NCBI GenBank assembly: GCA_946415265.1
Contig: CAMKRV010000001.1
Coordinates: 82,887-128,019, forward strand
Length of the DNA: 45,133 bases
Origin: an uncultured Candidatus Saccharibacteria bacterium
Lineage (GTDB): Bacteria > Patescibacteriota > Saccharimonadia > Saccharimonadales > Saccharimonadaceae
Direction of reading: 5' to 3'
Both the position numbers and the translations under genes were made by a program. Each line of letters starts with the position of its first letter. Positions within the stretch are counted from its first letter, which is position 1. The notes under the pieces are model-generated. The model saw nothing but the letters and a program-made list of their open reading frames with translations. It did not search any database and was not told the DNA's origin. Of the stretch, positions 12,352-45,133 are shown in pieces.

Positions 12352-12356
12352 TTCAA

Positions 12357-12449
12357 CCCGGATGGGTGGCACCGCTGGGGGAACCCCCGCCGCACGCAGG
12401 CACAGACCGAGTACGGTGGGGGAAACTGTGGTGGCAGGCCCCATCCGGG
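12357..12449. repeat. Palindromic element between efp and the tlyA-like gene (E2, type I core)
   Basis: CCCGGATGGG (12357-12366) and CCCATCCGGG (12440-12449) are exact inverted ends. Inside are GGGGG-aa-CCCCC and an asymmetric GC-rich middle. The 87-bp core 12360-12446 matches the core at 40633-40719 at about 67 of 87 positions by hand count. The same frame is used in both and gives GGTPAARR and PSTVGET. In this copy the element supplies the apparent ATG of the downstream gene. Confidence 0.85.
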
Positions 12450-13090
12450 GATATATCAAGTTATCTGATGCTGTCAGGTTTTTTGGCTTTGATTTTAAGG
12501 ACAAAATAGTTTTAGACATCGGCTCCTCCACTGGTGGTTTTACCGAACTTGCCCTCAAAAATGGCGCCAAAAAAGTAATCGCGGTAGAAAAGGGAACTAA
12601 CCAAATGAAATCCCCGCTTCGCCACGACCCCAGAGTAGAGTTGCATGAAAAAACGGATATTTTTGACACGGAAGTGAAAAAAGATTCTTTCGAAGGGGGT
12701 CCGGAGCTTGGCAAAGCGAGGAGTAGCGCCGCCCGCCCGTGGCGACGGGCCGGGCGGACGCGCCCCGAGAAAGAACTTTTTTGCGCTCCCGATGTTATTG
12801 TGGCTGATGTATCGTTCTTAAGCTTGACAAAAATCTTAAAGTATGCTAAAATACACCTATCACGTAGCAATACGGATTTCTTGGTGATGTTAAAACCCCA
12901 GTTTGAGGCTAAACCATATCAGCTAAATAAAGGTGTAATAAAAAACGAAAAGATTCGTCGCGAAATCATTAAAAATTTTGAACAATGGCTGGGGCAAAAT
13001 AATTTCATCATTATCAACAAGCGCGACAATAGATTAGCCGGCAAGAATGGCAATCTAGAAAGATTCTATTATTTAAAGCTTGCAAAATAA
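12362..13090 (+). CDS. TlyA-like rRNA/hemolysin-family methyltransferase, S4 domain absent, two inserted elements
   Basis: Rossmann-type methyltransferase of the TlyA/FtsJ-like family, which 2'-O-methylates rRNA. The core is clear: RGYIKLSDAVRFFGFDFKD, the SAM motif VLDIGSSTGGFTELALKNGAKKVIAVE, DVIVADVSFLSLTKIL, and FLVMLKPQFEAK. The usual N-terminal S4 RNA-binding domain is missing. The residues before RGYIKLSD are instead coded by the palindromic element E2, and the best ATG (12362) lies inside it; GTG codons near 12428 are alternatives. A second insertion at about residues 105-140 (GGPELGKARSSAARPW...) separates strands that are adjacent in the family. The frame is open throughout, so the gene is probably expressed. 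Confidence 0.8.
   Translation: MGGTAGGTPAARRHRPSTVGETVVAGPIRGYIKLSDAVRFFGFDFKDKIVLDIGSSTGGFTELALKNGAKKVIAVEKGTNQMKSPLRHDPRVELHEKTDIFDTEVKKDSFEGGPELGKARSSAARPWRRAGRTRPEKELFCAPDVIVADVSFLSLTKILKYAKIHLSRSNTDFLVMLKPQFEAKPYQLNKGVIKNEKIRREIIKNFEQWLGQNNFIIINKRDNRLAGKNGNLERFYYLKLAK
12677..12782. repeat. Palindromic element inside the tlyA-like gene (E3)
   Basis: AAAAAAGATTCTTTC (12677-12691) and GAGAAAGAACTTTTTT (12767-12782) are inverted arms. The centre is very GC-rich and contains GCCCGCCCGTGGCGACGGGC, itself foldable. It adds about 35 codons in frame. Confidence 0.75.
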
Positions 13091-20703: not shown

Positions 20704-21297
20704 ATGGCAAAACAAAATATCAACTCTAAAAAAGGCTTCACCATCATCGAAGTCGTACTCGTGTTGGCTATTGCGGGTCTTATCTTCTTGATGGTCTTCG
20801 TAGCGCTCCCGGCTTTGCAACGCTCACAGCGTGATACTCAACGCCGCAATGATCTATCGCGCGTTGACACCTCATTAGTCCAATATCAAACTAATAACCA
20901 AGGAACTAACGGCGGCTCCAATCTGCCAGTTGCAGGCACGTTTGATCCTAGCCAAAGCAGCTCCTTCCCAGAAAATTGCAAGAATAGTTCGGCTTGTACT
21001 TTTGTTCGTAATTATATGAATTCTGGCACATCAGATAATATCACTACCAACACTTTCCAAGATCCGGATGGTTGGTACTACGGTATGACCATCATGACTC
21101 ATGCCGAATCAGGGCTCACTGATACGGGCGGCTCATGGAAGTATACAGATAAGGTAGGCAACGCCATGAACCATATAATATATGTATTTGATGGGGCTAA
21201 ATGTAATGGTGAAGAAGTTACTGGCGATTCGCAACGTCACTTCGCGATTGTTTACCGTCTAGAAGGTGCTGGTACCTACTGTATCGATGACCAGTAG
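20704..21297 (+). CDS. Type IV major pilin-like protein 1
   Basis: 197 aa prepilin. The leader ends KKG, cut by PilD before FTIIEV, with Glu at +5. The hydrophobic helix VVLVLAIAGLIFLMVFVALPALQ continues into a basic alpha-1C region (RSQRDTQRRNDLSRVD). The globular part is variable and has cysteines at about 99, 105, 180 and 194. The C-terminus YRLEGAGTYCIDDQ is shared with the next pilin. The first 208 bp from 20725 are identical to the same part of pilin 2. It has its own promoter, SD and terminator. Confidence 0.9.
   Translation: MAKQNINSKKGFTIIEVVLVLAIAGLIFLMVFVALPALQRSQRDTQRRNDLSRVDTSLVQYQTNNQGTNGGSNLPVAGTFDPSQSSSFPENCKNSSACTFVRNYMNSGTSDNITTNTFQDPDGWYYGMTIMTHAESGLTDTGGSWKYTDKVGNAMNHIIYVFDGAKCNGEEVTGDSQRHFAIVYRLEGAGTYCIDDQ
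20725..20932 (+). repeat. 208-bp exact direct repeat, copy 1 (pilin N-terminal module)
   Basis: Identical by eye to 21390-21597. It covers the prepilin cleavage site, helix and alpha-1C region up to the conserved LPV. The boundaries are abrupt, and no identity continues on either side. Confidence 0.9.
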
Positions 21298-21374: not shown

Positions 21375-21980
21375 ATGAATACAGAAGGTTCTAAAAAAGG
21401 CTTCACCATCATCGAAGTCGTACTCGTGTTGGCTATTGCGGGTCTTATCTTCTTGATGGTCTTCGTAGCGCTCCCGGCTTTGCAACGCTCACAGCGTGAT
21501 ACTCAACGCCGCAATGATCTATCGCGCGTTGACACCTCATTAGTCCAATATCAAACTAATAACCAAGGAACTAACGGCGGCTCCAATCTGCCAGTTGGTC
21601 CAGCGTTCTGTCAAGCTAGCAAGGATTTCTCTCTCTCGAATGGCAATAAAAATGCTTGTGATTTTATTAGGGAATATATGAACACTAGCGTATCTGGTGC
21701 CGAGAATACATTTCAGGACCCAGATGGCTCCATGTATAATATCTATTTTTCAGAAAATTGGGCCACTAAGAATGGTGACCTTGTGACTAAGCATGGTCCA
21801 GCCCAACTTAAGAAAAACGGATCAACATATACTATAGGTACTGAATTTGACGATCACATGATCTATGTCATCACTGGTGGACGGTGCGATGGGGAATCGG
21901 CCGTCAAGGCCCAACCGAGAAACTTCGCAATTTTATATCGTCTAGAAGGGGCGGGTACTTATTGCATTGACGACCAGTAG
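21375..21980 (+). CDS. Type IV major pilin-like protein 2 (paralogue of pilin 1)
   Basis: 201 aa. Same prepilin signal (SKKG before FTIIEV) and the same N-terminal 69 or so residues as pilin 1, coded by identical DNA. The middle differs (GPAFCQASKDFSLSNGNKNACDF..., a Lys/Gly-rich part) while keeping FQDPDG, a MIYVI..G.CDG stretch and the C-terminal YRLEGAGTYCIDDQ. This gives a conserved head, variable centre and conserved tail. Spacing from pilin 1 is 77 bp with a terminator between. There is only a weak SD (GCGAGGTATAAAAA) before ATG 21375, so its expression may differ. Confidence 0.9.
   Translation: MNTEGSKKGFTIIEVVLVLAIAGLIFLMVFVALPALQRSQRDTQRRNDLSRVDTSLVQYQTNNQGTNGGSNLPVGPAFCQASKDFSLSNGNKNACDFIREYMNTSVSGAENTFQDPDGSMYNIYFSENWATKNGDLVTKHGPAQLKKNGSTYTIGTEFDDHMIYVITGGRCDGESAVKAQPRNFAILYRLEGAGTYCIDDQ
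21390..21597 (+). repeat. 208-bp exact direct repeat, copy 2
   Basis: See 20725-20932. The offset is 665 bp throughout, with no gaps. Confidence 0.9.
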
Positions 21981-29037: not shown

Positions 29038-29071
29038 GTGTAAACCTTCTGCATAAAAATAGCCCCCTCAG

Positions 29072-29106
29072 GGCTTCTTTTATTTTCTGGTGACCCGGGT
29101 GCGAGT
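29072..29106 (-). repeat. 35-bp direct repeat of the tRNA-Arg 3' end and its terminator arm (distal copy)
   Basis: Identical to 29251-29285, which contains the T-arm, acceptor 3' strand and CCA of tRNA-Arg plus adjacent Ts. The distal copy also has its own hairpin (AGCCC-cctca-GGGCT) just outside, so it is a tRNA end with terminator but no tRNA body. Confidence 0.85.
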
Positions 29107-29224
29107 AAATCTTCGCTTCGCGAAGCTTTTCCGCCGGGCGTCGCCTCGATAAATCTAAAATTTATTTTAGATTTATACTCGTCTCCTACGGCGGGCGAAC
29201 CATAGTTCGCCCCTCCCCCAGAGT
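29107..29224. repeat. Palindromic element between the tRNA-Arg end repeats (E7)
   Basis: Contains a perfect 13-bp hairpin, ATAAATCTAAAAT (29149-29161) with ATTTTAGATTTAT (29164-29176). It also has CTTCGCTTCGCGAAG, GGGCGAAC-cata-GTTCGCCC (29193-29212), and an inverted copy of the tRNA piece CGAGT. The composition and the CTTCGCGAAGC motif resemble the other elements here. Confidence 0.7.
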
Positions 29225-29227
29225 AAC

Positions 29228-29267
29228 AGAAAATAAAATAAGCCTTAAAAGGCTTCTTTTATTTTCT
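29228..29267 (-). terminator. Terminator of tRNA-Arg
   Basis: AGAAAATAAAATAAGCCTT (29228-29246) is complementary to 29249-29267 except near one base. It gives a long AT-rich hairpin directly after the CCA end on the minus strand. Confidence 0.8.
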
Positions 29268-29342
29268 GGTGACCCGGGTGCGAGTCGAACGCACAACCTC
29301 TTCCTTAGGACGGAATTGCTCTATCCATTGAGCCACCGGGCC
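29267..29342 (-). tRNA. tRNA-Arg (anticodon CCT)
   Basis: On the minus strand the acceptor GGCCCGG pairs with CCGGGTC (one G-T pair). The D-arm is GCTC...GAGC, the anticodon loop GTCCTAA (CCT), and the T-arm GTGCG-TTCGACT-CGCAC. The discriminator is A and CCA is encoded. The anticodon stem has an A-G mismatch at its base. Confidence 0.93.
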
Positions 29343-33324: not shown

Positions 33325-35031
33325 ATGGAACAAATCCGCGAACAGATTAAAACTACCGTCAAAGACCTCTATGGTCTAGATGTTGCGCCAGATATTACTC
33401 CATCGCCTGAGAATGTCGATGCGGATTATTCTTCTAATATCGCCCTGAAACTTGCCAAAGATTTGCGCAAAGCACCAATGGAAATAGCAAACGAAATCGC
33501 TCATAAAATCTCCGCAAAAGTTTCTGCACCAGGTTTTCTTAACTTCACTTTGCCAGACGAATATCTAGCCGCCCAAATCAAAAATCTCAGCACCAATTTC
33601 AGAGAAAATATATCATCAGACGAATATTCTGGCAAAACTGTTATTTGTGAATTTAGTGACCCCAATCCCTTTAAAGTATTGCATGTCGGCCACCTCTATA
33701 CTAGTATTGTGGGCGACTCTATTAGTAGGCTATTTGAATATTCCGGCGCTAAAGTTATTCGTGCCAACTTTGGCGGCGATGTAGGCTTGCACGTTGCCAA
33801 AACTCTCTATATCCTAGAGCAAAAATCCCCCGCAGATTTTACCATTGAGGATATCGCCAAATGCTATGTAGAAGGCACTGCTGCCTATGAAGATAGTGAG
33901 GATGCTCATGCCAAAATCACCGAACTGAACAAAAAAATTTATCAGATTAATTCCGAAAATTTTCATGATAGTAAGCTAGCTGAACTTTACTGGAAGGGCA
34001 GGGAATTATCCTACGATTATTTCAAAGATTTCTACGCTCAGATTGGCGTACATTTCGACAAATTCTACCCCGAATCCACTGTCGCCGATTTGGGCCTAGC
34101 AAAAGTCAAAGAAGAATTAAAAAACGGTGTCTACGAAATCAGCGACGGCGCAGTAATTTTCAATGGCGATAAGTTTGGTTTGCATACTCGTGTGTTTATT
34201 AATAAAGAGGGCGTCCCTACCTACGAAACTAAAGACGTCGGCCTAATTTTCACCAAGTGGCAAGATTACCATTTTGATAAATCCGTAGTCATCACCGGCA
34301 GCGAGCAGTTAGATTATATGAAGGTAGTACTAAAGTCTGTAGAACAATACGCTCCAGATTTGGTAGAAAAAACCACTCATCTCACTCATGGCCTAGTCAA
34401 ACTCCCCGGCAATGTCAAAATGTCTTCCCGTAAGGGCAATTTCCTTAAAGCCGTAGATGTATTAAATATGGTTCGTGATGAGCTGCAGAGCGAATATAAT
34501 TCCACAGACAACACCGTAGCTCTCGCCGCCACCAAATACGCTTTCCTCAAATATAAAATGGGCGGTCATATCATCTTTGATCCTAAAGAATCCGTCAAAA
34601 TGACCGGCAATTCAGGCCCTTATTTGCTTTATTCTGCCGTTCGTGCTAAGAAGATTTTGTCTAGAAACGTCAAAAATAATCTCAAAGCGAACATACGCGA
34701 CAACGGGAGCGGAATAGCAAGCGAACCCCGTAACGACGGGCGTGAGCGCAGCGGTTCGCGTGAGATTATTTTGACGTCATCCGAACGTAATCTTGTCAAG
34801 AAGATTTTAGAGTACAAGGGTACGCTAAAGGAAGCCGTCGCCGAAATGGCGCCGCACAAAGTTGCGAGCTACTTGTATGAACTCGCCCAGGAGTTCTCAC
34901 GCTTCTATGAACACTGCCCTGTAGCCGGCAGCGACAGGGAAGCTGAGCGCACCGAACTCGTCAAAGTTTATCTAGACACCATGTCTCACGGCTTAAATAT
35001 TCTAGGCATTAACATCCCGGAGGAAATGTAA
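33325..35031 (+). CDS. argS: Arginyl-tRNA synthetase with an inserted palindromic element
   Basis: 568 aa class I synthetase. The N-terminal ArgRS tRNA-binding domain is followed by FSDPNPFKVLHVGHLYTS (HIGH equivalent, about 110-127), IRANFGGDVGLH, GVPTYETKDVGLIFTKW, and MSSRKGN (KMSKS equivalent). The anticodon-binding helical domain begins SGPYLLYSAVRAKKIL and ends MSHGLNILGINIPEEM. At about residues 448-484 an extra stretch (NLKANIRDNGSGIASEPRND...) interrupts the anticodon-binding domain and coincides with the palindrome at 34667-34777. The frame is kept. The stop overlaps the orn start (TAATG). Confidence 0.95.
   Translation: MEQIREQIKTTVKDLYGLDVAPDITPSPENVDADYSSNIALKLAKDLRKAPMEIANEIAHKISAKVSAPGFLNFTLPDEYLAAQIKNLSTNFRENISSDEYSGKTVICEFSDPNPFKVLHVGHLYTSIVGDSISRLFEYSGAKVIRANFGGDVGLHVAKTLYILEQKSPADFTIEDIAKCYVEGTAAYEDSEDAHAKITELNKKIYQINSENFHDSKLAELYWKGRELSYDYFKDFYAQIGVHFDKFYPESTVADLGLAKVKEELKNGVYEISDGAVIFNGDKFGLHTRVFINKEGVPTYETKDVGLIFTKWQDYHFDKSVVITGSEQLDYMKVVLKSVEQYAPDLVEKTTHLTHGLVKLPGNVKMSSRKGNFLKAVDVLNMVRDELQSEYNSTDNTVALAATKYAFLKYKMGGHIIFDPKESVKMTGNSGPYLLYSAVRAKKILSRNVKNNLKANIRDNGSGIASEPRNDGRERSGSREIILTSSERNLVKKILEYKGTLKEAVAEMAPHKVASYLYELAQEFSRFYEHCPVAGSDREAERTELVKVYLDTMSHGLNILGINIPEEM
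34667..34777. repeat. Palindromic element inside argS (E4, type II core)
   Basis: ACGTCAAAAATAATCTCA (from 34667) and its near-exact complement ending at 34777 (TGAGATTATTTTGACGT) are the arms, extended by GCGAAC/GTTCGC. The core begins CATACGCGACAACGGGAGC and resembles the window-end element at 45073-45133. 111 bp equals 37 codons. Confidence 0.85.
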
Positions 35032-40298: not shown

Positions 40299-41279
40299 AT
40301 GCAGCGCCTTATTATCGTTTATAACCCCAGTTCCTCTCGTTTTGCCGATGTCAAAAAAAATGTCCTCACCCCCGCCCAGAGACTAAACGGATACATTATC
40401 GGTAAATATGAAGTAGAAAAAACCAATCTAGAAGCTAATATCACAAAGCTTGCCAAATTGATTCAAGACGGCGATCTAGTAATTTCCGCCGGCGGCGATG
40501 CTACCGGTATTATTGCAAGCAATGGCATCCTTAAATCTGGCAAGGATGCTACTCTCGCGGTGCTTCCATACGGCAACTTCAACGATCTTTCTCATACTCT
40601 CGGTACGAGTAAATTAGCGGATATCGTTACACGGACGGGTGGCCTCGCTGGGGGGACTCCCGCCGCGCGGAGGCGTGAGCCGAGCACGGTGGGGGAAACT
40701 GCGAGGTCAGGACCCGTTCAGAGACTATATCCATTGGAAATTATCGTGGATGGTAAATTCTTTCGTTATGCTACCTGTTACGTTACTATTGGCATGATGG
40801 CAGAATCTGTTAAAATCTACGATCAGCCCAAAATGCGAAAAAAACTTAAGACATCATTTGGCCGTAAAATTAGTTCTTACACGGATCTTGCCGGCTGGTA
40901 TTTTAAATATCGTCATAAAAAACAGTTCCTGCCAGATTTTAAATTAAACGGCGAACCACAGCCCAAAAATACTTCAGATTATGCTGCCGTTAATGGTCGC
41001 TTCTTGGCTCGCGTTTTAAAAAGTACGCCATATTATCAAAATCCCCACACTTTTCTACATGAGACAGATCGCCTTACCAACTTCTGGCGTCTCTCTAAGC
41101 TCATCACAAAAAGCATCTTTTTCCGCATCGCCAATACTGAAACCACACATGACAAAATAGAGTTTCTAGAGCCAGCCACCATAGAACTCCAAGCCGAAGG
41201 TGAGTATAAAGTTTTCAAAAATATTAAACAAATTGAAATTAAGAAAAGCGATAAGTTTATTAAGGTTATCCATAAGTAG
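40299..41279 (+). CDS. Diacylglycerol/sphingosine kinase-like protein with an inserted palindromic element
   Basis: 326 aa. N-terminal IIVYNPSSSRFADVK and the nucleotide-binding VISAGGDATGIIASNGI (GGDGT-type, here GGDAT) identify the DAGK catalytic family; LAVLPYGNFNDLSHTLG matches the family's P-x-GT-x-ND-LA motif in altered form. The C-terminal beta domain (LEIIVDGKFFRYATCYVTIGMM...) follows after an abrupt insert at about residues 108-144, TRTGGLAGGTPAARRREPSTVGE..., coded by the palindrome. The lipid substrate cannot be told. The start follows the upstream stop by nine bases without a clear SD. Confidence 0.75.
   Translation: MQRLIIVYNPSSSRFADVKKNVLTPAQRLNGYIIGKYEVEKTNLEANITKLAKLIQDGDLVISAGGDATGIIASNGILKSGKDATLAVLPYGNFNDLSHTLGTSKLADIVTRTGGLAGGTPAARRREPSTVGETARSGPVQRLYPLEIIVDGKFFRYATCYVTIGMMAESVKIYDQPKMRKKLKTSFGRKISSYTDLAGWYFKYRHKKQFLPDFKLNGEPQPKNTSDYAAVNGRFLARVLKSTPYYQNPHTFLHETDRLTNFWRLSKLITKSIFFRIANTETTHDKIEFLEPATIELQAEGEYKVFKNIKQIEIKKSDKFIKVIHK
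40620..40731. repeat. Palindromic element inside the diacylglycerol-kinase-like gene (E5, type I core)
   Basis: The 87-bp core 40633-40719 matches the efp/tlyA element with no gaps. Weaker outer arms GATATCGT... and ...ACTATATC flank it. It is translated in the same frame as the E2 copy. Confidence 0.85.
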
Positions 41280-43992: not shown

Positions 43993-44027
43993 GTTTGGCG
44001 GACATTCGAAACCTAGACCCTTCAAAT

Positions 44028-44200
44028 CTCAAAACTAACTTTTTGTTTGTATAAAGCAAACCCGAGAAAATTTTTCTAAATTTTAGAAAAATCGACGAGC
44101 GAACCCAGGGCAGGCGTGAGACGAGCGATTTTTCGTCAAGAAATTTAGAAAAATTCTTCCCGGCGTGCAGCGTAGGCGCAAACAAAAAGTTGGTTTTGAG
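44028..44200. repeat. Large nested palindromic element between the FISUMP and APH-family genes (E6)
   Basis: Outer arms CTCAAAACTAACTTTTTGTT (from 44028) and the complement ending at 44200 differ at one of 22 positions. Nested inside are GAAAATTTTTCTAAATTT with AAATTTAGAAAAATTCTT, and GAAAAATCG with CGATTTTTC. The centre GCGAACCCAGGGCAGGCGTGA resembles the argS element. It fills the 223-bp gap between the convergent genes. Confidence 0.8.
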
Positions 44201-44215
44201 ATAAAGACAAAAGAC

Positions 44216-45042: not shown

Positions 45043-45072
45043 GCATATAGGCAACTAGAATAATACCTTTCG

Positions 45073-45133
45073 GGACCATACGCGACTAACGAGGAGCGGA
45101 ATGAGCGAAGCTTCGCCCATAACGATGGGCCGA
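45073..45133. repeat. Start of another GC-rich palindromic element, cut by the window edge (E9)
   Basis: CATACGCGACTAACGAGGAG followed by GCGGAAT and AACGATGGGC parallels the argS element core (CATACGCGACAACGGGAGCG, then AACGACGGGC). GCGAAGCTTCGC forms a hairpin. The right side is outside the window. Confidence 0.6.

Follow-up and report, generated by a model that had tools for sequence, protein, structure and literature searches.

An in-frame palindromic insert in argS of a Saccharibacteria genome and its likely mobile family

Introduction

Palindromic elements that encode parts of proteins have so far been described as peculiar to Rickettsia and Wolbachia. The Rickettsia palindromic elements (RPEs) and their Wolbachia counterparts are palindromic sequences of about 100-150 bp that lie in frame in genes for conserved proteins as well as in intergenic regions, and orthologous RPE loci can bear different element groups (PMC3767692; PMC2229807; PMC10969869). 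A guanylate kinase containing an RPE is translated and active (PMC2229807). REP/BIME sequences and other MITEs (ERIC, RUP, and Correia) are mostly intergenic and have conserved terminal repeats (PMC2229807). Palindromes within genes are also found in mitochondria: those of Nematomorpha carry long inverted repeats in translated essential genes, with arms that are apparently kept identical and for which template switching has been proposed, and the byp elements of Magnusiomyces are palindromic inserts in protein genes (PMC6649704). In a search of the open-access literature (subscription papers lie outside it), such elements were undescribed in Saccharibacteria or Patescibacteria.

In this study, a 45,133-nucleotide stretch of DNA (the window) from a Saccharibacteria-type genome (G000; 772,665 bases, 24 contigs, 83% complete) was analyzed, in which the gene for arginyl-tRNA synthetase (ArgRS) contains a palindromic insert. 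Similar to RPEs, this element is short (111 bp), dispersed, and in frame in conserved genes, and its types differ between orthologues. Different from RPEs, its host phylum is unrelated to Rickettsia and Wolbachia and its named matches are all Candidatus Saccharibacteria, its family has a two-hairpin core between arms of about 21 nt that are different at every site, its copies use at least five reading frames, and a second element nests in a core hairpin. On this descriptive comparison, the family appears to be separate and lineage-specific, and is RPE-like in behavior.

Like REP/BIME, ERIC, RUP, and Correia sequences, the Saccharibacteria elements are short, non-autonomous, structured, and dispersed, but most examined copies lie in open frames and the arms are site-specific; their outer arms are 0.55-0.58 identical between sites against a background of 0.42, so that terminal repeats are not conserved as they are in a classical MITE. 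The presence of inverted repeats inside essential genes is shared with Nematomorpha, whose arms, however, encode conserved native protein and for which no dispersed core has been described, whereas here a repeated and probably mobile core is found and the insert occupies loops. Byps are skipped by the ribosome, whereas the frames of the Saccharibacteria copies stay open and continuous.

Results and Discussion

The Insert in ArgRS

The features of the window that are relevant to this element are as follows (all on the plus strand).

33325-35031, plus strand: argS (arginyl-tRNA synthetase, 568 aa), the host gene that the element interrupts; identified by Pfam and by PDB ArgRS matches (E 1e-42)
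34667-34777, plus strand: palindromic element in argS, in frame; from the open reading frame, the fold, and the loops of relatives
34667-34692, plus strand: left arm; pairs with 34754-34777, with compensatory changes relative to G118 and G086
34693-34753, plus strand: family core with two internal hairpins; repeats of this stretch at other places in the genome have different arms
34696-34711, plus strand: core hairpin 1 (CGCGACAACGGGAGCG); from the fold
34721-34747, plus strand: core hairpin 2, containing CCCGTAACGACGGG (34727-34740); from the fold and pair changes, and the target of a nested type-3 element in other copies
34754-34777, plus strand: right arm; from the fold and compensatory changes
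45050-45133, plus strand: second family copy (type 1), truncated by the contig end; from BLAST (C1:127960-128019), with a full-length orthologue in G127

The open reading frame at 33325-35031 encodes a complete ArgRS with the Pfam domains tRNA-synt_1d, DALR_1 (435-568), and Arg_tRNA_synt_N. Within it, the element comprises 111 nt, that is, 37 stop-free codons in frame, in agreement with an earlier reading made from the sequence alone (the sequence-only reading). The same reading described a 111-bp palindrome with near-perfect arms, which is accurate for the outer arms, as they pair almost perfectly, but not for the middle, which forms two hairpins of its own. The RNA fold of the element is -46.1 kcal/mol (z -4.5), and none of 200 shuffles was equally stable. 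The proposed addition of about 37 residues has to be reduced to a net gain of about 22-25, given a loop of 50 aa compared with 24-29 aa in element-free relatives, the latter being the range in most measured uninserted argS loops.

The insert lies, as had been proposed, in the anticodon-binding domain, where it occupies the linker joining two helices of the DALR domain; in E. coli ArgRS this linker is some 18 residues long, and across the genus its length varies. The suggested location on a surface loop is consistent with an AlphaFold model of low quality (mean pLDDT 59.6), in which residues 449-479 fall below 50 between predicted helices at 430-446 and 485-495, as would be expected for a disordered loop, and nothing points to a contact of the insert with the anticodon site. 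The sequence-only reading would have been refuted by the same residues in ArgRS of unrelated bacteria, a result that was not obtained: E. coli ArgRS and most relatives lack them, and they are shared with only two relatives (G118 and G086), both of which carry the same element.

Measured from the AKKIL helix as far as a fixed downstream anchor, the 55 fetched argS loops range from 44 to 98 aa, and those without an element from 44 to 53 aa. Many of the other loops carry a hairpin element, and this one site holds several element types in different species: the type found in G000 recurs in G118 and G086, type 2 is present in G080, G127, G009, G079, G109, G138, G003, and G012 and, in reversed orientation, in G007, and further types occur in G006, G060, G167, and G018. 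The nearest relatives by DNA, G080 (87%) and G127 (84%), have an argS element that differs from that of G000, and the argS of G088 (90% upstream) has none. Decayed arms were identified in argS of G012, G097, and G072.

A Dispersed Family and Its Host Range

A genome-wide search, which the sequence-only reading had suggested, revealed the family: BLAST with the element identified about 12 copies in G000, a number that rests on searches. Further copies are located in ileS, mnmA, tatD, obgE, and tsaE, just upstream of glmM, and in intergenic regions (gene names at the copy sites were read from translations, with Pfam used for argS only). Their centers are conserved, and their arms differ between copies yet stay mutually complementary. 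The insertion seen in the anticodon-binding domain therefore stands, but as a member of a genus-wide, probably mobile family and not as a single oddity. ArgRS linkers are variable in length in general, and the insert could in principle be ordinary, non-mobile variation of the native linker; this reading is contradicted by the dispersed copies, as the core recurs in unrelated genes and intergenic regions, in both orientations and several frames, and we consider it extremely improbable.

A covariance model (R1) built from nine cores had matches in 97 of the 118 genomes sampled from the genus, at 1-23 copies per genome. Across 392 genomes of the order, R1 matched 65 that belong to the genus and two from other genera of its family, with zero matches in the remaining sampled genomes. 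A search for an exact 38-nt pattern across 84,980 species returned 14 stretches, all 14 from Candidatus Saccharibacteria (13 from assemblies of the ruminant gut, the other from one whose title names no source), and the plasmid, phage, and viral collections searched contained zero family matches. As judged from these sequence searches, the element family is almost confined to one genus of rumen Saccharibacteria.

The argS insert is thus likely to be a copy of a non-autonomous, palindromic, mobile family of about 110-120 bp, which belongs to a genus of rumen Saccharibacteria, is tolerated in proteins, and resembles the RPEs. Such an element is most likely moved as a DNA hairpin by an enzyme acting in trans; insertions would persist in loops, in intergenic spaces, and where the frame is kept, and the insert in ArgRS would be translated as a disordered linker. 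A candidate mobilizer, the Y1/REP transposase (PF01797), was absent from 36 sampled genomes of the genus except for fragments in G024, which sets the family apart from REP/RAYT systems; as far as the search shows, a Y1/REP enzyme is not what would move the element in these genomes.

The family appears to be independent of those in Rickettsia and Wolbachia and very active in streamlined Patescibacteria, where it enters tRNA synthetases and GTPases. These observations suggest that, in reduced genomes, proteins are repeatedly altered by selfish DNA that enters their loops, and gene annotation and structure prediction in this genus should anticipate such inserts.

Reading Frames

At the fetched loci, 115 of 138 copies are located in long open frames (92 sense and 23 antisense), mostly of housekeeping genes and many of them for essential proteins (argS, ileS, obgE, mnmA, tatD, tsaE, and others); because this coding class was set by open-frame length, which favors in-frame copies, frame conservation within it is in part built into the definition. 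The frame was checked independently in a search of ArgRS in 60 relatives, in which every match was stop-free although loop lengths were very different. Five frames are used in proteins (54 and 38 copies in sense; 12, 9, and 2 in antisense), and the sixth, used by none, holds the TAA of a GTAACGA motif. Type-2 cores keep five of the six frames open in 45 of 67 copies and four in 20 of 67. Over whole elements, 2.7-3.7 frames are open (3.7 in type 2) compared with 1.5 in shuffled sequences, and likewise in five non-coding copies.

At one locus of G000 (L030, C4:23715-23866), an element lies at the 3' end of tsaE and the open frame continues into tsaB, a possible fusion.

Anatomy and Covariation

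Each copy consists of a conserved core of 72-74 nt with two hairpins, flanked by complementary arms of about 21 nt. Arm complementarity, measured over 92 copies, stays at about 90% out to approximately 20 nt and then drops to the background level over about 3 nt. A comparison of the eight orthologous type-2 elements in argS gave 95.6% paired cells and two-sided changes in 20 of 45 pairs, compared with an average of 6.7 in shuffles, none of 500 of which reached 20; the kinship of the sequences inflates such counts, but shifting the partners by 1-3 columns abolishes the signal. Core hairpin 1 is 100% paired in related type-2 argS elements, with two-sided changes in five of eight pairs, and the three elements of the G000 type in argS show two-sided changes in eight of 38 pairs.

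A structure of such stability, with covariation in both arms and core, might be kept for a role in the mRNA, such as excision, ribosome bypass, or expression control. The pairing, however, is not specific to the mRNA strand: when read on the mRNA, arm mismatches in coding copies comprise 44 G.U and 45 A.C, and because these are equal the pairing looks to be at the level of DNA and not a selected mRNA structure. Selection on the arms at the RNA level was rejected on this lack of strand bias. Copies are also present in both orientations, their open frames would be needless under bypass or excision, and an Rfam search returned two tRNAs only, with no match to the element. An mRNA role is accordingly regarded as very unlikely.

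Origin of the Arms

Between orthologous copies, the arms are 0.81 identical, similar to the flanking DNA (0.79), and the cores 0.92; between copies at different sites, the corresponding values are 0.59 for arms and 0.85 for cores. Where cores are near-identical, the outer 15 nt of the arms are 0.88 identical in orthologues (five pairs) and 0.58 between sites (31 pairs), with a background of 0.42. As copies with identical cores have near-unrelated arms at different sites, and orthologous arms diverge like their flanks, these sequence comparisons indicate that arms were probably fixed at or soon after insertion. An exchange of cores within lasting arms was also considered; cmk and obgE are suggestive singly, but there was no overall support (permutation p 0.84).

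In the explanation that we favor, the second arm would either be made at insertion, for example by fold-back copying of about 15-20 nt of target, or be kept equal to the first by correction of the palindrome. Either process would tie the arms to the locus and the core to the family. Arms that differ at every site may point to an unusual mode of insertion, and strain-level data would allow this mechanism to be tested through the combination of a fixed core and site-specific arms.

One explanation of the site-specific arms is that they are made from the target, with one arm native and the other an inverted copy produced during insertion. At the C19 site, the uninserted allele of G001 has CAATTAAAACTA, a match to the left arm but not to the right; at L149, G127 and G000, in which this element is missing, have ACAATAAGATAGC, resembling the left arm of G080; and the right arm of the G060 argS element, TTGAACTCGTCCGAACG, resembles the uninserted TTAAACTCGTCTGAACG of G035. 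At L150, however, neither arm is present in uninserted alleles, and the argS arms match element-free alleles hardly any better than arms taken from other sites do (right, 9.48 versus 9.14; left, 9.52 versus 9.83), which leaves an origin from the target rather doubtful. We consider unlikely a specific form in which each insertion copies about 15-20 nt of target beside a fixed hairpin core, which would make the arms a target duplication in inverted form; if true, these elements would insert in a way that departs from the direct target-site duplications known from other small elements.

Arms might instead belong to the element, arriving alike and then drifting, with template switching or gene conversion keeping them complementary and constraint or conversion keeping the core. 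The many two-sided changes in orthologous arms, the absence of mRNA-strand bias among mismatches, and the inner 7 nt of the arms, which are partly common between sites (0.70), are consistent with this explanation, and template switching has been invoked for coding palindromes elsewhere (PMC6649704). The contrast in outer arms beside identical cores (0.58 between sites versus 0.88 in orthologues) argues against it, since it would then need gene conversion of the core only or a very strong constraint on the core, and we hold element-owned arms to be conceivable but tentative.

Near-identical genome pairs with and without an element of the main types were searched for and none was found, the nested type being the only one with such a pair; the exact ends and duplications of the main types are therefore provisional.

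The Nested Type-3 Element

Some elements carry a further element of 75 bp (type 3) within their CCCGTAACGACGGG hairpin. It is present in G000 (obgE and tsaE) and in G127 (ileS), and is always flanked on both sides by GACGG, an apparent 5-bp duplication. In obgE of G127, the same host element is present without type 3, and the type 3 in obgE of G000 is thus an insertion with a clean, uninterrupted counterpart. Its exact ends are uncertain because all cases have one target.

Other Repeats

Several other repeats were observed. A second superfamily of structured repeats with short arms is represented in the window at 12356-12451 and 40629-40724 (76% mutual identity), the one downstream of the EF-P gene and the other an in-frame part of a DAGK-like gene (ORF 40299-41279), and similar sequences occur elsewhere in G000, including beside tsaE and at a site where G080 has a type-2 element. 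An intergenic repeat pair at 29056-29290, AAAATA...GGCTTCTTTTATTTTCTGGTGACCCGGGTGCGAGT, resembles tRNA 3' ends with hairpins and was not called as tRNA by Rfam. A long intergenic hairpin at 44026-44202, with 23-bp outer arms, inner arms, and a core-like center, is 94% identical in G127. An identical 208-nt direct repeat (20725-20932 and 21390-21597) is located in neighboring ORFs, the first of which has a prepilin-type N-methylation motif.
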